Source: Hydrogenophaga sp. (GTDB taxonomy: Bacteria; Pseudomonadota; Gammaproteobacteria; Burkholderiales; Burkholderiaceae_C). From it: a stretch of 64,000 nt of DNA. The notes below the pieces were generated by a model. That model worked only from the letters and a program-made list of their open reading frames with translations, was not told the DNA's origin and did no database searches. The DNA lies in the NCBI RefSeq assembly GCF_018780385.1, contig NZ_JADMJO010000093.1:1-64000 (forward strand). The letters are read 5' to 3'. Made by a program: the position numbers and the translations under genes. The first letter of the stretch is position 1. Each line of letters starts with the position of its first letter. Of the stretch, positions 54,536 through 62,311 are shown piece after piece.

Positions 54536-54967
54536 ATGTCAAACAAAACAAGCCCGAACCCCGAAACCACCCTGCCCCGCGACAGGGAACTGGTCATGAA
54601 GGTCATTCCCATGCCCGCTGACTGCAATGCCAACGGCGACATCTTCGGCGGCTGGGTCATGGCGCAGGTCGACCTGGCCGGTGCCGTGCTCCCGGCGCGC
54701 CACGTGCGCGGGCGCATGGTCACGGTGGCGGTGAACCAGTTCGTCTTCAAGCAGCCGGTGCGCGTGGGCGACATCCTGAGCTTCTTCTCGCATGTCACGC
54801 GCGTGGGAAACACCTCGATCACGGTGGAAGTCGAGGTGTTTGCCGAGCGCATCCTGGCCCAGGGCGAGTACCTGAAGGTGACCGAAGCCAGCCTGACCTA
54901 CGTGGCCATTGACGCGGAAGGTCGACCCCAGCCGATCCCGCGCGAGGATGTGAAGTCGCCCAGCTGA
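54536..54967 (+). CDS. Acyl-CoA thioesterase (YciA-like hotdog protein)
   Basis: A 143-residue single hotdog-fold thioesterase resembling YciA, which hydrolyses a broad range of acyl-CoAs. Visible marks are NANGDIFGGWVMAQVDLAGA (the catalytic loop with Asn/Asp and GGW), VTVAVNQFVFKQPVRVGD and VTEASLTYVAID. The start at ATG 54536 gives the usual N-terminus after a short leader. It is followed by the IclR gene in the same direction (69-bp gap). Confidence 0.9.
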   Translation: MSNKTSPNPETTLPRDRELVMKVIPMPADCNANGDIFGGWVMAQVDLAGAVLPARHVRGRMVTVAVNQFVFKQPVRVGDILSFFSHVTRVGNTSITVEVEVFAERILAQGEYLKVTEASLTYVAIDAEGRPQPIPREDVKSPS

Positions 54968-54998
54968 TCGCGGGCGGGCGTCTTGCGGCGCGCTAACA

Positions 54999-55012
54999 TT
55001 GTCCCTGGACAA
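54999..55012. promoter_or_regulatory. Candidate IclR operator upstream of iclR (TTGTCCCTGGACAA)
   Basis: TTGTC-CCTG-GACAA is a perfect inverted repeat 24 bases upstream of the IclR start. The same TTGTMC-N3-GACAA 14-mer with identical spacing occurs at 60915-60928 and 61550-61563. Position suggests autoregulation (inference). Confidence 0.65.
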
Positions 55013-55036
55013 AACGTCCGAGGAGTCTCGCGTCCC

Positions 55037-55849
55037 ATGCCCGCCGAATCCAGAATACCCAGACAGCCTGCTCCAGCCGCAAAGAAGGGCGTGCGCGTGC
55101 GCGACGTGCCCGCCGTGACCCGGTCGATTGCCATCCTGCGTTTGCTCGGACGGACCAAGCAGGCACTGGGGGTCAAGGCCATCGCCGACGAACTCGGTTT
55201 GGTCCCGAGCACCTGCCTGCACATCCTGCGCGTGTTGGTGAGCGAAGAACTCGTGAAGGTGGAGCCCGGCACCAAACACTACGCGCTGGGCAGCGGCATG
55301 ATCAGCCTGGCCCGCAGCGTGCTCAAGGGCGGCAGCTTTGCCCAGCTCGCCCAACCAGGGCTGGACCGCCTGGCGTCTTCGTTTGGTGTTACGGCGATGG
55401 GCGTGGAGGTGACGCCCAAGCAGACCGTGGTGGTGCTCGCCCTGTCCCGTTCGGACCAGCCGTTTCGCATGCACACCGACGTGGGCAGCCAGTTTTCTTC
55501 ACTGGTGAGCGCCACCGGGCGCCTGATCGCCGCCTACAGCGGTGACAACTGGACCGTGCTGCGCCAGAAGTTTGCCGCCATCGAATGGGACAAGGCGCCG
55601 AGCTTTGCGCAGTGGAAGAAGGAAATCGAAGAGACCCGGGCCCGCGGCTGGAGTTCGGATCGCGACAACTTCATGAGCGGGATCACGGTCGTTGCCGTGC
55701 CGATCTTCGAGCCGTCCGGCCGACTCATGCACACACTGGTGGCCGTCGGTCTCTCCAGTCAGCTCCACGCCACGGCCATGGTGCAACTGGCAGCCGCCAT
55801 GCGGCAGGAAGCTGAATCGATTTCGGACCTGCTGCTCGATCGCCACTGA
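55037..55849 (+). CDS. IclR family transcriptional regulator
   Basis: A 270-residue IclR protein. The N-terminal winged HTH is SIAILRLLGRTKQALGVKAI and LGLVPSTCLHILRVL; the C-terminal effector domain has SFGVTAMGVEV, GSQFSSLVSATGRLIAAYSG and GWSSDRDNFMSGITVVAVPIF. IclR proteins typically bind small acids or acyl compounds. It converges with the Bug receptor gene, the last member of the operon from the ligase, with only 24 bp between stops. The shared 14-mer operator ties it to that operon. The 20-residue Pro/Ala/Arg-rich N-terminal leader is unusual but modest. Confidence 0.92.
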   Translation: MPAESRIPRQPAPAAKKGVRVRDVPAVTRSIAILRLLGRTKQALGVKAIADELGLVPSTCLHILRVLVSEELVKVEPGTKHYALGSGMISLARSVLKGGSFAQLAQPGLDRLASSFGVTAMGVEVTPKQTVVVLALSRSDQPFRMHTDVGSQFSSLVSATGRLIAAYSGDNWTVLRQKFAAIEWDKAPSFAQWKKEIEETRARGWSSDRDNFMSGITVVAVPIFEPSGRLMHTLVAVGLSSQLHATAMVQLAAAMRQEAESISDLLLDRH

Positions 55850-55873
55850 ACCGGGCAGCTGCCGCAGCCCCGC

Positions 55874-56836
55874 TCAATCAACCTGGATGCCGGCACGTTT
55901 GATGACCGGCTCCCACTTCCTGCGCTCGTTGACCGCGAAGGCGGCCAGTCGGGCCGGTGTGCCGCCCGCCGGGTCAAACCCCAGATCGAGCAGGCGCTGA
56001 CGGCTTTCGGGCTGCGCCAGCACCTTGTTGAGGGCCGCGTTCAGTGTATTGATGATCGCTGGTGGCGTGCCTTTGGGGGCGTACAGAGCATTCCAGGCCA
56101 CCACCTCGAAGTCTTTGAAACCCTGCTCAGCCACGGTCTTGACGCCGGGCATCAGGCCGCTGGGCTGAGCGGACGTGACCGCCAGCGCGCGCAACTTGCC
56201 CGAGGCCAGCATCGGCCGCAGCGCGGTCGGGGTGTCGACAATCGCCGGCACCTGACCGCCCAACAAGTCCGACATGGCATTGGCAGACCCTTTGTAGGGA
56301 ATGCCGAAGAGCGGCACCGACGTGCGGTCTTTCAGCAGTTCGACCACGAGCCGTGCGGTGGTGCTCGGCATGGCAATGTCGGCGCTGCGGGGATTGCGCT
56401 GCGCCAGGCTCACGAGTTCGGCAGCGGATGTCAGCGGCGACGCGGCGTTCACCGCCATCACCATGGGAAAGGTGCCCACGAGTGCAATGGGCTCAAAATC
56501 CTGCGCCGGGTCGAACGGGAGTTTGGCGTAGAGAAACTGGTTGAGCACATGGGTGGCGTTGGTGCCCATGGTCAGGGTGTAGCCGTCCGGCGCGGCCTGT
56601 TTGGCCAGATCGGTGCCCAGGTTGCCGCCGGCCCCCGCCTTGTTCTCGATGACGATGGGCTGGCCCAGATCGACCGCCATCTGGGCGGCGAGGTAGCGAG
56701 TGGCGATGTCGGTGCCCTGCCCCGCGGCATAGGCCACGATGATCTTGATGGGCCGTTGCGGATAGGTCTGCGCGTTGGCGGCCATCGAGGTCGTCAGCGT
56801 GAAGGCGGCGGTGATGATGAGGTTCAGAAATCGCAT
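55874..56836 (-). CDS. Tripartite tricarboxylate-type (Bug) periplasmic binding receptor
   Basis: A 320-residue Bug receptor with a signal peptide cleaved after ANA at residue 22. YPQRPIKIIVAYAAGQGTDIATR is the family start; GAGGNLGTDLAKQAAPDGYTL and GIPYKGSANAMSDLLGGQV are typical. Such receptors deliver organic acids to TctAB-type membrane proteins, but no tctA/tctB lies here, as for many orphan Bug genes in Burkholderiales. It is the last gene of the ligase-MaoC-CoA-transferase run. AAGGAG lies 6 bases before the ATG. Confidence 0.92.
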   Translation of the reverse strand: MRFLNLIITAAFTLTTSMAANAQTYPQRPIKIIVAYAAGQGTDIATRYLAAQMAVDLGQPIVIENKAGAGGNLGTDLAKQAAPDGYTLTMGTNATHVLNQFLYAKLPFDPAQDFEPIALVGTFPMVMAVNAASPLTSAAELVSLAQRNPRSADIAMPSTTARLVVELLKDRTSVPLFGIPYKGSANAMSDLLGGQVPAIVDTPTALRPMLASGKLRALAVTSAQPSGLMPGVKTVAEQGFKDFEVVAWNALYAPKGTPPAIINTLNAALNKVLAQPESRQRLLDLGFDPAGGTPARLAAFAVNERRKWEPVIKRAGIQVD

Positions 56837-56871
56837 GTTTGTCTCCTTTTATTGTGATGGCCAGTTGGCCA

Positions 56872-58074
56872 CTAGGTTCTGGGTCCGGGGGCGGCACCCG
56901 TTTCTCGCAATCGTTGACGGTCGTTCTCCGAATAGCCCAGGCCCACCAGAATGGCTTCCGTGTCTTGAGCAAAGCCCGGCGGTCTGGCGCCCGGTGAGCC
57001 CGGCGTGCCCAGCAGCCGCATGGGCGAGCGCAGGCCGGTGTAGTTCGAACGGCGCACGACGATGTCGCGGTGTTCGCAGTGGGCATGCGCCAACGCCTGG
57101 GGCACCGAATTCACGGCACCAGCCGGCACTCCCGATCGCATCAAGGCTTCGCACAAGGGCTCGCAGTCCCGGTCTGCTATTGCCCCTTCGATCAACGCCT
57201 TGAGCGCGGCGCGGTTGACCACCCGCAGACTGTTGCTGGAAAAACGCTCGTCATCCAGCAGGTTCTCCAACCCCAGGCAAGCACCCAGTCGACGGAACTG
57301 CGCATCGTTCAGGATGCCGATGAACAACTCGCCATCATGGGCCTTGAACTTGTCGTACGGCGCAATGTTCGGGTGCGCGCTGCCGAGCAAGCGTGGTGAA
57401 TCCTTCGACGCGAACCAGTTCGACGCATGCGGCAACAGCAGGCTCAGCGCCGTGTCGTACAAGGTGGCCTCCACCCGTTGCCCCCTTCCGCTGGCCTGGC
57501 GCGCCAGCAGCGCCATGAGGATGCTGCTCATGGCCACGTAGCCGGTGAGGTGGTCCACGATCGGCATGCCCACCCGCGTGGTTCCGCTGCACTCGTCGCC
57601 GTTGATGCTCATCAGTCCGCACAGCGCCTGCAGCACGGCGTCGTAGCCCGGCAAGCCGCCCAGCGGCCCATCGTTGCCAAAACCGGTGATGCTGCAGTGG
57701 ACCAGGCGCGGGTAGCGCTCGGCCAGGGTCTGCTCGTAGCCCAGACCCCAGCGTTCCAGGGTGCCGGGGAGAAAGTTCTCCACCAGCACATCCGCGTCGG
57801 CCAGCAAACGGTGAAGCACCTCCTGCGCCTCGGGCCGGGACAGGTCGAGGCTGATGGCCTGCTTGCCCCGGTTGAGCGCCAGAAAGTACGCCGCGTCGCC
57901 ATCACCATCGAAGGGCGGTCCCAGGCTGCGCGTCTCGTCGCCCGAAGGCGGCTCGACCTTGATCACCTGGGCACCGTGATCCGCCAGCATCTGAGTGCAC
58001 AGCGGCCCCGCCAGCACCCGGGTGAGGTCAACGACCTTCACGCCTTTCAGTGCGCCACCGGCGGTCGTGGACAT
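56872..58074 (-). CDS. CaiB/BaiF family CoA transferase (class III)
   Basis: A 400-residue class III CoA-transferase. The family start is GVKVVDLTRVLAGPLCTQML; VENFLPGTLERWGLGYEQ, CSITGFGNDGP and GLPGYDAVLQALCGL contain the catalytic Asp region. These enzymes swap CoA between an organic acid and an acyl-CoA. The start ATG 58074 was chosen over the upstream in-frame GTG by homology. It lies 5 bp after the MaoC-like gene and 35 bp before the Bug gene, so it belongs to their operon. The substrate cannot be named. Confidence 0.92.
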   Translation of the reverse strand: MSTTAGGALKGVKVVDLTRVLAGPLCTQMLADHGAQVIKVEPPSGDETRSLGPPFDGDGDAAYFLALNRGKQAISLDLSRPEAQEVLHRLLADADVLVENFLPGTLERWGLGYEQTLAERYPRLVHCSITGFGNDGPLGGLPGYDAVLQALCGLMSINGDECSGTTRVGMPIVDHLTGYVAMSSILMALLARQASGRGQRVEATLYDTALSLLLPHASNWFASKDSPRLLGSAHPNIAPYDKFKAHDGELFIGILNDAQFRRLGACLGLENLLDDERFSSNSLRVVNRAALKALIEGAIADRDCEPLCEALMRSGVPAGAVNSVPQALAHAHCEHRDIVVRRSNYTGLRSPMRLLGTPGSPGARPPGFAQDTEAILVGLGYSENDRQRLRETGAAPGPRT

Positions 58075-58079
58075 CGGAT

Positions 58080-59219
58080 TCACCCCCTGGACGGCAAGAC
58101 GACGATGCCGCTGCCCACCACCGACAGCTCGTCGTTCTGGTTGCGGGCTTCCTGGTCGATTTCGACCATGTGCTTGCCGTTTTCGACGAACTTGCGCTTG
58201 ACCTTGGCCTTGATGAACAGCATGTCGCCTTCGGGGTTGTGGCGGCGGATCTTGCAGCTGGCCTTGTGAAGGAAGCCTGCATCGCCCATCCAGTTGGTGA
58301 GCTGGTGCGTGAGCCACGAGGTGCGCTCCGGGCCGTAGTCGTAGGCACCCGGGGCGCCCACTTCGAGTGCGAAGTCTTCTTCCCAGTGAACACGCTCGGG
58401 GCAATCGGGGATGCCGAAACGGTTCTTGATGCCCACACCAGGATGCTGGTCGATCAGCTTCCAGGCCAGTTTGTTGGCCCGGATGTACAGACCGCCCCAA
58501 CCCTGCGCGTAGGCGATGAAGCCAGTCACGGTCATCGGACCCTTGAACATCACAGGCAGTTCTTCGCCCTCCTTCACGTCCTCCCAGTAGCGCGGGGTGG
58601 CACCACGGATCTCCTCGTCGCGGTACAGCTTGTAGGCTTCGGCCAGCTCTTCATCGGTGTAGCGGCGCGGCGCGCTCGCGCGCACCTCGCTGTACTTGGT
58701 GCCCTGCTCGCGAGCGTGATCGCGCTCGGTGCGGAAGCACCAGCTGTCGGCCTCGGCCACCTTGTCACCGCTCTGGTTGAAGAAGTCCACGTGGTAGGTC
58801 TGCTGCACGGCGCGGCCGGCAAAACGGGTCTGGTGCTCGACCAGTTCCTTCAGACTGGCCTCGGTGTGGATCTCGTCGTTGCGGCGCACGGGCTTGTGCC
58901 AGGTCCAGTCCGCGCCCGACCACATGGCGTGCACGCCCGGCAGACCGCCGACGTAGCCGGACACGATGCGGCTGGTCGAGAACAGGAAGCTGGGCAAGGC
59001 AATGATGCCGCCGTGCTGGCTCTTGGCCGCGTACTCGGGGTCGCACCACAGCGGGTTGTCGTCACCGATGCCGTGGGCGTAGTGGCGGATGTTGTCGCGC
59101 GTGGCCTCGTGGCACCAGGGTTCGACCGTGTGGCCGATCTTGACGCCGATGCGCTGGCGAAGCTCGTCAAGACCTTGCTCGGTGATCTTGGGAAAGTTGC
59201 GGGTTTCGGTGGTGGACAA
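58080..59219 (-). CDS. MaoC-like acyl-CoA dehydratase with two hotdog domains (TTG start)
   Basis: The 379-residue protein has two hotdog halves. The first has YAHGIGDDNPLWCDPEYA, the hydratase-2 motif with the catalytic His replaced by Trp; the second, around residues 230-375, has WGGLYIRANKLAW and MVEIDQEARNQNDELSVVG. This is the organisation of FAS1-like and other two-domain MaoC proteins. The TTG start at 59219 (L/M-STTETRNFPKITEQG) is preferred, since AAGGAG lies 6 bases upstream; the longer ATG frame begins at 59294. It follows the ligase gene by 61 bp. Role: hydration of an enoyl-CoA made from the ligase product (inference). Confidence 0.85.
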   Translation of the reverse strand: MSTTETRNFPKITEQGLDELRQRIGVKIGHTVEPWCHEATRDNIRHYAHGIGDDNPLWCDPEYAAKSQHGGIIALPSFLFSTSRIVSGYVGGLPGVHAMWSGADWTWHKPVRRNDEIHTEASLKELVEHQTRFAGRAVQQTYHVDFFNQSGDKVAEADSWCFRTERDHAREQGTKYSEVRASAPRRYTDEELAEAYKLYRDEEIRGATPRYWEDVKEGEELPVMFKGPMTVTGFIAYAQGWGGLYIRANKLAWKLIDQHPGVGIKNRFGIPDCPERVHWEEDFALEVGAPGAYDYGPERTSWLTHQLTNWMGDAGFLHKASCKIRRHNPEGDMLFIKAKVKRKFVENGKHMVEIDQEARNQNDELSVVGSGIVVLPSRG

Positions 59220-59280
59220 ACGTGTCTCCTTGGTTGGGTGAATCGAGAGTGGGTGGGTGTTTGAATCGAAGCCGGTTCGA

Positions 59281-60843
59281 TCAGGTCGAAGCAACGGCCA
59301 GGGCCGCGATCTCCTGTTCGCGAAGCTTCTTGCGGTGCACTTTTCCGGCCGGGGTCTTGGGCAGTTCAGCGACCACCGCCACGTGGCGCGGGTACTCGTG
59401 CTGACTCAGCTTGTTGCGCACGAGGTTCTGGATTTCTTCGGTGAAGGTGTCGGAGCCGGGCCTGTTGCTGACAACAAAGGCCTTGACCACCTGCCCGCGC
59501 AATTCGTCGGGCACACCAATGGCCGCGGCTTCCAGCACGTCGGGGTGCATGAGGATCACGTTCTCGATCTCGACCGCGCTCATGGTCCAGCCGGCCGAGA
59601 TGATCACGTCGTCGGCCCGGCCCCCGTGATGGAAGTAGCCCTCGCTGTCGATGCGACCCAGGTCCTTGGTCGGGATCCACTGCCCCCGGCGCAGCACCAT
59701 GAGTTGTCCCGAGGTGCCCACCGGGCACGGTTGGCCCTCGGCGTCCTGCACCACCACCTGGGTGCCGGGCACCGGTTTGCCCAGGGAGCCCCGGTGCACC
59801 GGGAAATCGGGCGCACCGGGGTAGCTGACCAGCACCACACCGATCTCGGTCGTGCCGTACATGCTGCACACCTCGAGTCCGAAGGTCTGGTGCACGAAGT
59901 TCGCGGTCTCGTCGTCGATCGGCTCGCCGGTGAACGACAGCTTCTTGAGCGCATAGGTGTAGCGACCCGCCGCACCGCTGTTGCGCATCATGCGGTAGTG
60001 CGTGGCCGCTGCCGACATGTTGGTGAAGCAGTGTTCGGACAACGCATGCAGCAAGCGCTCAGGGTTGAAACGGCCGGCGTAGGCACCGATCGTCAAACCC
60101 AGGGCAAGCGGCGCGAGCGTGCCATGCCAGAGCCCGTGTCCCCAGGCCGGCGAAGAGGGGCAGAAGAAGCGGTCTCCCGGGCGCAGACCCGTGCCGTACA
60201 ACGCGGCCACCATCAAGGTGACCAGCGCACGGTGCGAATGTTTGACCGCGTCGGGCAGTTCGCGCGTGGTGCCCGACGTGTACTGAAACACCGCCAGGTC
60301 ATCGGCCCGCGTCTTCACCTCGAACGTTGACGGCAACGGCTGGATGGAGGCCAGAAAGTCGCGATCGAAGACCAGCACACCGTCCCCGACGATGGACCGC
60401 GCCACTTCCTGTTTTTCTTCGTTCGTGACCAGCAAGGCAGGCTGGCAGTCCTTGACGCGCAGTCGAATGCCGTCGGGGCCGAACAGCGTGAACAACGGCA
60501 CCGCAATCGCGCCGCTCTTGATCACGCCGAACATGGCGACATAGAACGCCCGTGAGGGCTCCAACATGATCGCCACGCGCTGGCCCGGCTGGATGCCACG
60601 CGACACCAGGTGGTTGGCGAAGCGCGATGAATCGGCCGCCAGCTCCGCGTAGGTGATCGTCTCGTCGGCACCTTCGGCACGCACCACGATCACCGCGTCG
60701 CGCCCGGAAGCGGCGTGACGGTCCACGCACTCATGACCGATGTTCAGGACCTCGCGGTTGCCATCGAACAGCTCCCACAACTTGTCGTTGGAGAAGTGCG
60801 CCTGCGCATCGGCGTAGCTCGTGTAGTCGGTCAGTTTTTTCAT
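59281..60843 (-). CDS. AMP-dependent acyl-CoA synthetase/ligase
   Basis: The 520-residue protein is an ANL-family adenylating ligase that activates an organic acid to its CoA ester. The core P-loop reads YTSGTTRELPDAVKHSH, with Arg where most family members have Gly. SMYGTTEIG, GYFHHGGRADDVI and the C-terminal catalytic-lysine region LPKTPAGKVHRKKL are present. It leads the ligase-MaoC-CoA-transferase-Bug operon and has a candidate IclR operator upstream. The acid substrate is unknown. Confidence 0.92.
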   Translation of the reverse strand: MKKLTDYTSYADAQAHFSNDKLWELFDGNREVLNIGHECVDRHAASGRDAVIVVRAEGADETITYAELAADSSRFANHLVSRGIQPGQRVAIMLEPSRAFYVAMFGVIKSGAIAVPLFTLFGPDGIRLRVKDCQPALLVTNEEKQEVARSIVGDGVLVFDRDFLASIQPLPSTFEVKTRADDLAVFQYTSGTTRELPDAVKHSHRALVTLMVAALYGTGLRPGDRFFCPSSPAWGHGLWHGTLAPLALGLTIGAYAGRFNPERLLHALSEHCFTNMSAAATHYRMMRNSGAAGRYTYALKKLSFTGEPIDDETANFVHQTFGLEVCSMYGTTEIGVVLVSYPGAPDFPVHRGSLGKPVPGTQVVVQDAEGQPCPVGTSGQLMVLRRGQWIPTKDLGRIDSEGYFHHGGRADDVIISAGWTMSAVEIENVILMHPDVLEAAAIGVPDELRGQVVKAFVVSNRPGSDTFTEEIQNLVRNKLSQHEYPRHVAVVAELPKTPAGKVHRKKLREQEIAALAVAST

Positions 60844-60914
60844 GGTCTTCGTTGCTTGTCTCGTTGGGATGAATTCTTTCTGCGTTTTGTTTTTTTGTCA
60901 AATAGCATTGTGTT

Positions 60915-60928
60915 TTGTACATAGACAA
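60915..60928. promoter_or_regulatory. Candidate IclR operator upstream of the ligase operon (TTGTACATAGACAA)
   Basis: TTGTA-CATA-GACAA lies about 70 bases upstream of the ligase ATG (minus strand), at the head of the four-gene operon. It matches the iclR and thioesterase sites in spacing, with one arm base changed (A for C). Confidence 0.6.
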
Positions 60929-61046
60929 TCATGAAAAGAACGCAAGAAGACGTCAAACCTTGTGATCTCAGGACACGATCACAGCAACATCGCAGGGTGT
61001 GAGACTGACGGTTTCCGCCACGCCGCGGTGGCGATGGATGTGGTGC

Positions 61047-61490
61047 TCAGGGCATGCGAGCGGGCCGCAGCATCTTCATGACACCGCGCGCCGTGAGCAC
61101 GGCCTGGCCTTCCACCTGCACCAGGCCATCCACGAAGACCAGGCTGCCGGTGCGCGCCGTGATGCTCGCCCGCGCCAGCGCAAAATCGCCTGCGCGAACC
61201 TCGGCCAGAAAGTGCGTATCCAGCTGCACGGTCACGCAGGGCGTCCGGCCGCAGGCCTCCCAGGCCACCGTGCTGACCACGTGATCGATCAGCGTGGCAA
61301 GGGCACCGCCATGCACCACGCCGGCGGGGTTCAGATGTTTGTCCTCGGCGAGCAGTCCGTACACCCATCCATCGCCCTCACGGCGCGTCCACAACGGACC
61401 GGAATGCCCCATGAAACCGTCCAGTTGGCGCGACTTCCAGCCCTGAGCATGCAATCGATCGATAGCCTCGGAATTCAACATGTGACCCAT
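61047..61490 (-). CDS. PaaI-type hotdog acyl-CoA thioesterase
   Basis: A 147-residue hotdog thioesterase with the PaaI/DUF4442-like motif LNPAGVVHGGALATLIDHVV and the strand block VTVQLDTHFLAEVRAGD. It would hydrolyse acyl- or aryl-CoA, releasing CoA. A second ATG three codons in is an alternative start. It is upstream of the ligase operon on the same strand (203-bp gap) and has its own copy of the 14-mer operator (61550-61563) about 60 bases before its start. Confidence 0.88.
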   Translation of the reverse strand: MGHMLNSEAIDRLHAQGWKSRQLDGFMGHSGPLWTRREGDGWVYGLLAEDKHLNPAGVVHGGALATLIDHVVSTVAWEACGRTPCVTVQLDTHFLAEVRAGDFALARASITARTGSLVFVDGLVQVEGQAVLTARGVMKMLRPARMP

Positions 61491-61549
61491 TTCATGACGC
61501 CGATGAAGCGGCGACGGTCACACATTCTGACCACCTTTGCACAAATGGT

Positions 61550-61563
61550 TTGTCCAAAGACAA
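61550..61563. promoter_or_regulatory. Candidate IclR operator upstream of the PaaI-type thioesterase
   Basis: TTGTCCAAAGACAA, extended by T and A to a perfect 6-bp-arm repeat (TTTGTC-CAAA-GACAAA, 61549-61564). It lies about 60 bases upstream of the thioesterase start and 7 bases after the amidotransferase stop. Third copy of the shared 14-mer. Confidence 0.65.
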
Positions 61564-61570
61564 ATCGATG

Positions 61571-62311
61571 TCAGGCTTTCCAGCGCGCTTTCCAGGCCCG
61601 ATAGATGCCATCGGCCATGGCTTCGCTGCCCGACTGGTGGCGCAGCGTGGCAGCGTTCATCGAGGCCGGGTCCTGCACGCTGTTGCGGTGCAGCAGCACG
61701 TGGACCGGGTAAGCCTCGCCCGGCTTTTCCATCCAGTCCTTGATCTTGGCCGGCGTGATCTCGATGTGGAATTGCATCGCCAGGTGCTGGCGCAATGAAA
61801 ACGCCTGGTGCGCGCAGGTGCTGCTTGAGGCGAGCAGCTCGGCGCCGGGCGGCAGCTCGGTGAAGCTGTCCTGGTGCCATTGGTAAACCGTGGGCTGCAC
61901 CGCGTCGCCCAGCCACTCGCGCGACGCGGCGCTGTCCAGACGGGTGATGGGAAGCCACCCCACTTCCGGCTGCGGCAGGCGATCCACCTTTCCGCCAAAA
62001 GCGCGCGCCATGAGTTGGCCGCCCAGGCAATGGCCGATGACGGGAATGCCGAGCGCGTCGGCCTCGCGGATCAGGGCCTCGGCATGGCGCAGCGTCAGGC
62101 GGTCGTCGTTGGCGCTCCAGGCGCCGCCCAGCACGGCCAGGCCCCGGTAGCCGCGCACCGAAGCGGGATAGTCCTCACCGGCTTCGGCGCAGCGCAGGTG
62201 CCAGCTCACACCCTGGGCATCGAGCCACTCGCCCAGGAAACCCGGTCCGTCTTCGAACAGGTGTTGCAGCACCAGCACGTCGGCTGGCGCGGTGGAATCA
62301 GAAGGGCTCAT
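61571..62311 (-). CDS. Class I glutamine amidotransferase-like protein (GMP synthase-type)
   Basis: A 246-residue protein with the class I glutamine amidotransferase fold: GLAVLGGAWSANDD, the nucleophile elbow GHCLGGQ with Cys95, and the C-terminal FHIEITP bearing the catalytic His-Glu pair. It belongs to the group often annotated as GMP synthase glutaminase domain, acting alone on unknown amino compounds such as gamma-glutamyl conjugates. No synthetase partner is nearby. No clear Shine-Dalgarno sequence at the ATG. Confidence 0.88.
   Translation of the reverse strand: MSPSDSTAPADVLVLQHLFEDGPGFLGEWLDAQGVSWHLRCAEAGEDYPASVRGYRGLAVLGGAWSANDDRLTLRHAEALIREADALGIPVIGHCLGGQLMARAFGGKVDRLPQPEVGWLPITRLDSAASREWLGDAVQPTVYQWHQDSFTELPPGAELLASSSTCAHQAFSLRQHLAMQFHIEITPAKIKDWMEKPGEAYPVHVLLHRNSVQDPASMNAATLRHQSGSEAMADGIYRAWKARWKA

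Follow-up and report, generated by a model that had tools for sequence, protein, structure and literature searches.

A TTGT-N6-ACAA palindrome as the predicted operator of an IclR-family regulator encoded in an acyl-CoA gene cluster of Hydrogenophaga and its relatives

Introduction

The sections of Suvorova and Gelfand (2021; PMC8222616) on which we draw describe two main types of IclR motif, TGT-11-ACA with its relatives and TGRAACAN1-2TGTTYCA, together with three-box sites, tandem sites 18-22 nt apart and motifs of other types for IphR, PbaR and TsdR; they also name COG2030 and COG3181 among the genes associated in IclR regulons. Here we examine a candidate operator of this family in Hydrogenophaga sp. 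(assembly GCF_018780385.1, contig NZ_JADMJO010000093.1, positions 1 to 64,000 of the forward strand), the whole 64,000-nucleotide stretch being referred to as the window. A preliminary description of this DNA had proposed that a shared 14-bp motif at three places marks a regulon in which an IclR-family protein controls its own gene, an operon headed by an acyl-coenzyme A (acyl-CoA) ligase gene and a gene for a PaaI-type thioesterase. Our analysis leads us to predict with high confidence that the cluster's own IclR recognises a corrected form of this motif, the palindrome TTGTMYATRKACAA, as its operator.

Set against the described systems, the operator has a geometry of its own. The TGT and ACA triplets, separated by 11 or 12 bp in the first main group, are 6 bp apart in 86 of 87 ligase promoters, which makes the palindrome 5 bp shorter than the TGT-11-ACA type (PMC8222616), and the flanks of the ligase sites hold no conserved triplet at a spacing of 11 or 12. 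The half-sites run TTGT then ACAA, unlike the TGRAACA-N1-2-TGTTYCA of the second group. PcaU and PobR of Acinetobacter offer a similar architecture, a palindrome plus an external direct half-site that is said to be required for PcaU binding (PMC8222616), and this arrangement of inverted repeat and direct half-site recurs at the ligase promoters studied here. The PobR arms, TTGTCC and GGACAA, equal those of the window site upstream of iclR, but the PobR motif spans 19 bp against 14 bp here, with five fewer central bases in our sites (PMC8222616). The window regulator also scores far below the cut-off of the PcaR/PcaU/PobR subfamily (TIGR02431; 62.2 against 284.75 bits), and the genes around it are not recognisably those of the beta-ketoadipate pathway. 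The ligase promoter also has a further copy of the operator, half of it degenerate, at a distance of about 20 bp, which may correspond to the tandem IclR sites with centres 18-22 nt apart (PMC8222616). IphR, the IclR-family isophthalate regulator of Comamonas sp. E6, likewise has a short palindrome, GTCTCATCAGAC, with a downstream half-site (PMC8222616), but leaves four bases between GTCT and AGAC where the GTCTATAGAC form leaves two, and regulates another process. Finally, BhcR of the Paracoccus beta-hydroxyaspartate cycle is the best NCBIfam match of the window IclR; its gene too is divergent, and a possible palindrome precedes a -35 there (PMC11323563), whereas the score of 82.8 bits lies well under the BhcR equivalog cut-off (NF045644, 350 bits) and the enzymes differ.

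Results

The three window sites lie where the preliminary description had placed them and are the only exact matches to its motif, TTGTMCNNNGACAA, in the window. O1, TTGTCCCTGGACAA, occupies 54999..55012 on the forward strand and ends 24 bp before the iclR ATG (55037). O2, at 60915..60928 on the reverse strand, reads TTGTCTATGTACAA with the ligase operon (forward-strand letters TTGTACATAGACAA), its end 71 bp from the ligase ATG (60843, reverse strand), and O3, TTGTCCAAAGACAA, at 61550..61563 on the reverse strand, stands 59 bp before the start of the PaaI-type gene (61490). In their symmetric frame the sites are TTGT-N6-ACAA. Columns 1-4 and 11-14 are set by the search pattern, and the ligase sites of relatives show A or C at column 5, T or C at 6, mostly A at 7, mostly T at 8, A or G at 9 and T or G at 10, from which the consensus becomes TTGTMYATRKACAA. 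The motif as first drawn was too narrow, its C at position 6 and G at position 10 being accidental to the three window copies.

Conservation was assessed in loci gathered by the hydratase (MaoC) of the cluster and not by the motif. Genome contigs were scanned with this protein, and the best 80 of 580 matches, which come from Comamonadaceae, Alcaligenaceae, Bradyrhizobium and other groups, were joined to the window and 17 genomes of its taxonomic family, giving 98 loci, or 89 after removal of nine duplicates of the ligase promoter region; L124 and L143 have too little upstream DNA, leaving 87 loci for the ligase-promoter count. TTGT-N6-ACAA is found within 300 bp upstream of the ligase start in 86 of these 87, where first-order shuffles average 0.34, and the single exception (L110) carries TTATATATATACAA, one mismatch away, with TTGACAA at the usual distance. 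Across the 1.66 Mb of the 89 loci there are 125 motif places, of which 118 are near the start of the ligase, IclR or PaaI gene (within 420 bp before it or up to 40 bp inside), none are inside cluster genes and seven are elsewhere, one of these, in L125, preceding a Bug-iclR unit as read from its coordinates. In the window and the near relatives L086, L087 and L088 the iclR site is an exact TTGT-N6-ACAA at the same place in 4/4, with CT or AT as central bases. The place of the PaaI site is kept in all three near relatives, exactly in L088 and with one mismatch each in L086 and L087. Support for the regulon is strongest at the ligase site, good at the iclR site and weaker at the PaaI site. Some Bordetella petrii-type and Bradyrhizobium loci (L141, L146, L148, L149 and L152) have two operators between iclR and the ligase gene, perhaps one per gene; the distance between the two is 121 bp in L141, 123 bp in L149 and 48 bp in L152.

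Within the 5.38-Mb genome the looser TTGTMNNNNGACAA is no commoner than its reversed control (6 and 5 matches per strand against 6 and 7), and is therefore not enriched as such, yet three of its seven places fall within the 6.6 kb of the window considered here. TTGT-N6-ACAA occurs at 23 places in the genome, against 75 for the reversed control, and three are in the cluster; the binomial chance that at least two of the other 22 would fall in a fixed 6565 bp is 3.4e-4. A scoring matrix built from the ligase sites of relatives, with the window left out, gives O2, O3 and O1 scores of 26.2, 22.4 and 17.0, ranks 1, 2 and 3 of the 23, the next-best place scoring 12.9; the training sites score 20.8 to 29.9, a range below which O1 falls. 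These figures, with the ligase promoters of relatives, uphold the earlier statement that the positions are hard to explain by chance. Among the 299 family genomes the strict consensus has 30 places in 28 genomes, being present in 15 of 18 genomes with the IclR orthologue against 13 of 281 without (Fisher 3.7e-15), and all 16 places in those 15 genomes fall, by coordinates, in the cluster. The reversed control of the strict consensus, counted by eye, occurs in 19 of the family genomes. Given the matrix ranking and this confinement to the cluster the regulon looks local, and the regulator probably binds nowhere else in the genome than at the predicted sites O1-O3. The sequence TTGTCCATGGACAA is found in seven family genomes that do not have the cluster IclR; there it may serve some other regulator, or its presence may be due to chance.

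The operators follow iclR. The IclR orthologue (E<=1e-45) is present in 18 of the 299 family genomes, including that of the window and none of its three genus mates, and the MaoC orthologue (E<=1e-120) is present in exactly the same 18. Where iclR is divergent from the ligase gene, a strict site lies within 250 bp of iclR in 50 of 52 loci; where it forms a separate unit, a strict site precedes iclR or its PaaI-iclR unit in 14 of 19. Of the 10 loci with iclR downstream of the ligase gene and in its direction, 2 have a strict site. A neighbour survey, using seed searches with open reading frames of at least 150 codons from seven loci, identified as conserved families in the 89 loci the ligase (89), MaoC (89), Bug (85), CaiB (83), IclR (81) and PaaI (57), and no conserved neighbouring regulator other than IclR, although regulators smaller than this threshold would be missed. 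Four further families, matching 51 to 84 loci, were set aside, two of them being CaiB paralogues and two Bug paralogues. The genome of the window has one IclR at E<=1e-12 and no second at that threshold. The eight loci lacking IclR are L091, L093, L104, L120, L126, L138, L143 and L145; six of them have less than 300 bp after the last cluster gene, and L104 has 0.9 kb before the ligase gene and 9.0 kb after.

Alignment anchored on the operator of the ligase promoters reveals a second near-invariant block, TTGACAA, 27 bp from the operator start. In the window this block (60895..60901, reverse strand) contains the -35 hexamer TTGACA merged with a third half-site, the ACAA of which and the ACAA of O2 are 20 bp apart. 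At the closest ligase site 83 of 86 loci repeat ACAA at a distance of exactly 20 bp from the first copy, and 81 of 86 have TTGACA; the three loci without that ACAA (L141, L146 and L148) have two operators each, the further of which has TTGACAA at the usual distance while the closer keeps CAA. Of the second copy of the operator the right half is near invariant, and the left half mostly keeps only G or C then T or C. The seventh base of TTGACAA, an A outside the -35 hexamer, is invariant in 55 nonredundant promoters. Distal sites of L144, L149, L152, L156, L159 and L164 have AGGACAA or GCAACAA exactly 20 bp on and no TTGACA, and at PaaI-only places 6 of 11 have TACAA 19 or 20 bp on while L108 has TTGACAA (7 of 11 in total); the distal site of L126 has no third half-site. 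Because it is present at sites that have no TTGACA, the third half-site seems to belong to many of these operators in its own right and to be more than a -35.

A probable -10 hexamer, AAGAAT (60873..60878, reverse strand), follows the -35 of the ligase operon by 17 nt, and the resulting TTGACA-17-AAGAAT (60901-60873) agrees with the consensus at 10 of 12 bases. It is the better of two promoter-like sites in 54900-61700, where shuffles have a mean of 0.7, and the centre of O2 would be near -55 of the predicted transcription start. Relatives have a weak -10 at the same 17 nt after TTGACA, in which the A at the second and the T at the sixth position are conserved. A possible -10 hexamer of iclR, TAACAT (54994..54999, forward strand), abuts O1 and has no clear -35. 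Hexamers resembling a -10 abut the iclR sites of the window group (TAACAT or TAAGAT), of L154 (TATCAT) and of L144 (TATGCT).

The iclR gene (55037..55849, forward strand) encodes 270 residues with the Pfam domains HTH_IclR (1.2e-08; 35.1 bits against a cut-off of 22) and IclR_C (3e-15; 56.7 bits against 24), placing the product in the IclR family. The stretch V-x-STCLHILR is nearly invariant across 38 nonredundant homologues, whose pairwise identities begin at 41% and have a median of 51%. We take the STCLHILR stretch to be the recognition helix, which in the usual IclR proteins reads more like STxHRLL.

On the reverse strand the ligase operon comprises an AMP-binding acyl-CoA ligase gene (59281..60843), a gene for a MaoC/FAS1-dehydratase-type hydratase of 379 residues with a likely TTG start (58080..59219), a CaiB/BaiF (family III) CoA-transferase gene (56872..58074) and a gene for a Bug/TctC-type periplasmic receptor (55874..56836). 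The hydratase and receptor families are presumably those of COG2030 (MaoC) and COG3181 (TctC). The hydratase is 82-91% identical to that of the 17 family relatives and has only weak relatives among solved structures (best 6.6e-05), which do not name the pathway; the best NCBIfam match of the CoA-transferase is succinate-glutarate CoA-transferase, at 316 bits against a cut-off of 750. The PaaI-type hotdog thioesterase (61047..61490, reverse strand; Pfam 4HBT 1.9e-13) is below the NCBIfam cut-offs of PaaD and TIGR00369. Directly upstream of iclR, on the same strand, is a gene for a YciA-like acyl-CoA thioesterase (54536-54967; 124 bits to PRK10694, cut-off 162). YciA-like genes adjoin iclR also in L109, L113 and L125, and the gene may therefore belong to the cluster. 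Together the ligase, CoA-transferase, hydratase, thioesterase and TctC-type receptor suggest a small, perhaps dicarboxylic, acid as the substrate of the pathway. Our literature search, by titles and the openings of abstracts, returned no description of this cluster; a further search listed only the general survey of IclR motifs and a paper on a phenanthrene regulator.

Gene order varies among the 17 other family genomes, with the ligase and MaoC genes in all and CaiB in all but L042. At the level of the order, MaoC is found at E<=1e-90 in 11 of 399 genomes, and besides that of the window only G433 exceeds 66% identity, with an IclR of 53% identity beside the cluster. The MaoC of Bradyrhizobium loci (L149-L152, L156, L157 and L159-L162) is 83-84% identical to that of the window, and the cluster is absent from all three genus mates, a patchy spread that looks like horizontal transfer. 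In 11 more distant cluster stretches from nine genomes (MaoC 42-65% identical) TTGT-N6-ACAA was not found, and an IclR-like gene is present in two only, L199 (45% identity) and L202 (25%). L199 was left out of the regulon because its stretch, although it contains four matches with one mismatch each, lacks TTGT-N6-ACAA. L194-L198 (MaoC 62-65% identical, best copy) keep ligase, MaoC, Bug-like and CaiB-like genes; neither the cluster IclR nor the operator is in the stretches fetched, so that these clusters are likely to be regulated differently.

Discussion

We propose a model in which the IclR of this cluster would bind before the ligase-MaoC-CaiB-Bug operon, its own gene and the PaaI-type gene. 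Since the operator travels with the cluster and with iclR through many relatives, a local, autoregulated regulon of these three units is very probably real. At the level of sequence the regulon first proposed is thus supported by the shared occurrence of IclR and MaoC, by the presence of IclR in 81 of 89 loci and by sites that follow iclR.

It is moderately likely that IclR acts as a repressor. RNA polymerase would be blocked by a tetramer, or by two dimers, occupying the palindrome together with the -35 half-site, and since the third half-site is fused with the -35 box the bound pair would cover the latter; the pathway acid or its CoA ester would then release IclR. The regulator would also repress its own gene, for in three settings the sites before iclR adjoin hexamers that resemble a -10. 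Alternatively IclR might activate the ligase operon in the manner of PcaU and PobR, both of which are activators, and repress only itself, a possible but somewhat doubtful arrangement. The position of the operator near -55, upstream of the -35, would suit an activator, as would the extra direct half-site of the kind reported for PcaU, PobR and HmgR (PMC8222616) and the dual role proposed for BhcR (PMC11323563). The half-site nevertheless sits on the -35 itself, and in 81 of 86 loci the -35 at the closest site matches the consensus perfectly, which is unusual for promoters at which an activator has to make up for that element. In the window group and in L154 and L144, moreover, the iclR-only sites abut -10-like hexamers, as those of a repressor would, and repression by IclR is the reading we favour.

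Several observations weigh against assigning the operator to the cluster IclR. The separate iclR units of L113, L029, L030 and L031 have no strict site, and the one belonging to that of L125 falls beyond the stretch used for the count. Neither O1 nor O3 of the window has the third half-site, nor do any of the 11 iclR-only places or 4 of 11 PaaI-only places. In two of the three near relatives the PaaI site has degenerated. There are 14 strict-consensus places in 13 genomes without the IclR orthologue, and 3 of the 18 genomes with it have none. Mean conservation over the helix region of IclR (residues 45-62), at 0.76, is merely level with the 0.757 of the entire helix-turn-helix domain, the C-terminal domain being below both (0.63). 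The operator spacing, which fits neither published IclR consensus group, and L138, which keeps the operator with no IclR in the 8.4 kb before the ligase gene or the 5.2 kb after the last cluster gene, would also fit binding of the palindrome by some other regulator, such as a GntR- or TetR-family protein, whose gene lies elsewhere, with the adjacent IclR binding something else, and a TTGT..ACAA palindrome is not specific to one regulator family. We consider this improbable given that, in searches with open reading frames of at least 150 codons from seven loci, IclR is the sole conserved regulator detected beside the cluster, that it shares its 18 genomes with MaoC and that extra sites precede iclR in most loci where it forms a separate unit. 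That AT-rich promoters in GC-rich DNA yield such palindromes by chance or composition, as the unremarkable genome-wide count of the relaxed pattern might suggest, is refuted by 86 of 87 ligase promoters against 0.34 expected and by the top three ranks of the window sites under a matrix built without them, and we give it practically no weight.

Assignment of the palindrome to IclR turns a motif of three copies into a well-supported regulon across beta- and alphaproteobacteria, and gives an exact predicted operator to an IclR subfamily that has no assigned function. We tentatively suggest that this subfamily is distinguished by its operator geometry. Its palindrome, half a helical turn shorter than the usual family type, would be read by an altered recognition helix (STCLHILR), and exactly 20 bp on there would be a third half-site that doubles as the -35 at the ligase promoter. 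We further suggest, as tentatively, that the subfamily may control an undescribed acyl-CoA pathway common to Burkholderiales and Bradyrhizobium. With the acyl-CoA cluster tied to its own sensor, the inducer could be sought by a simple reporter assay. If bound as predicted, the spacing of the operator would bear on how IclR dimers and tetramers are seated on DNA.

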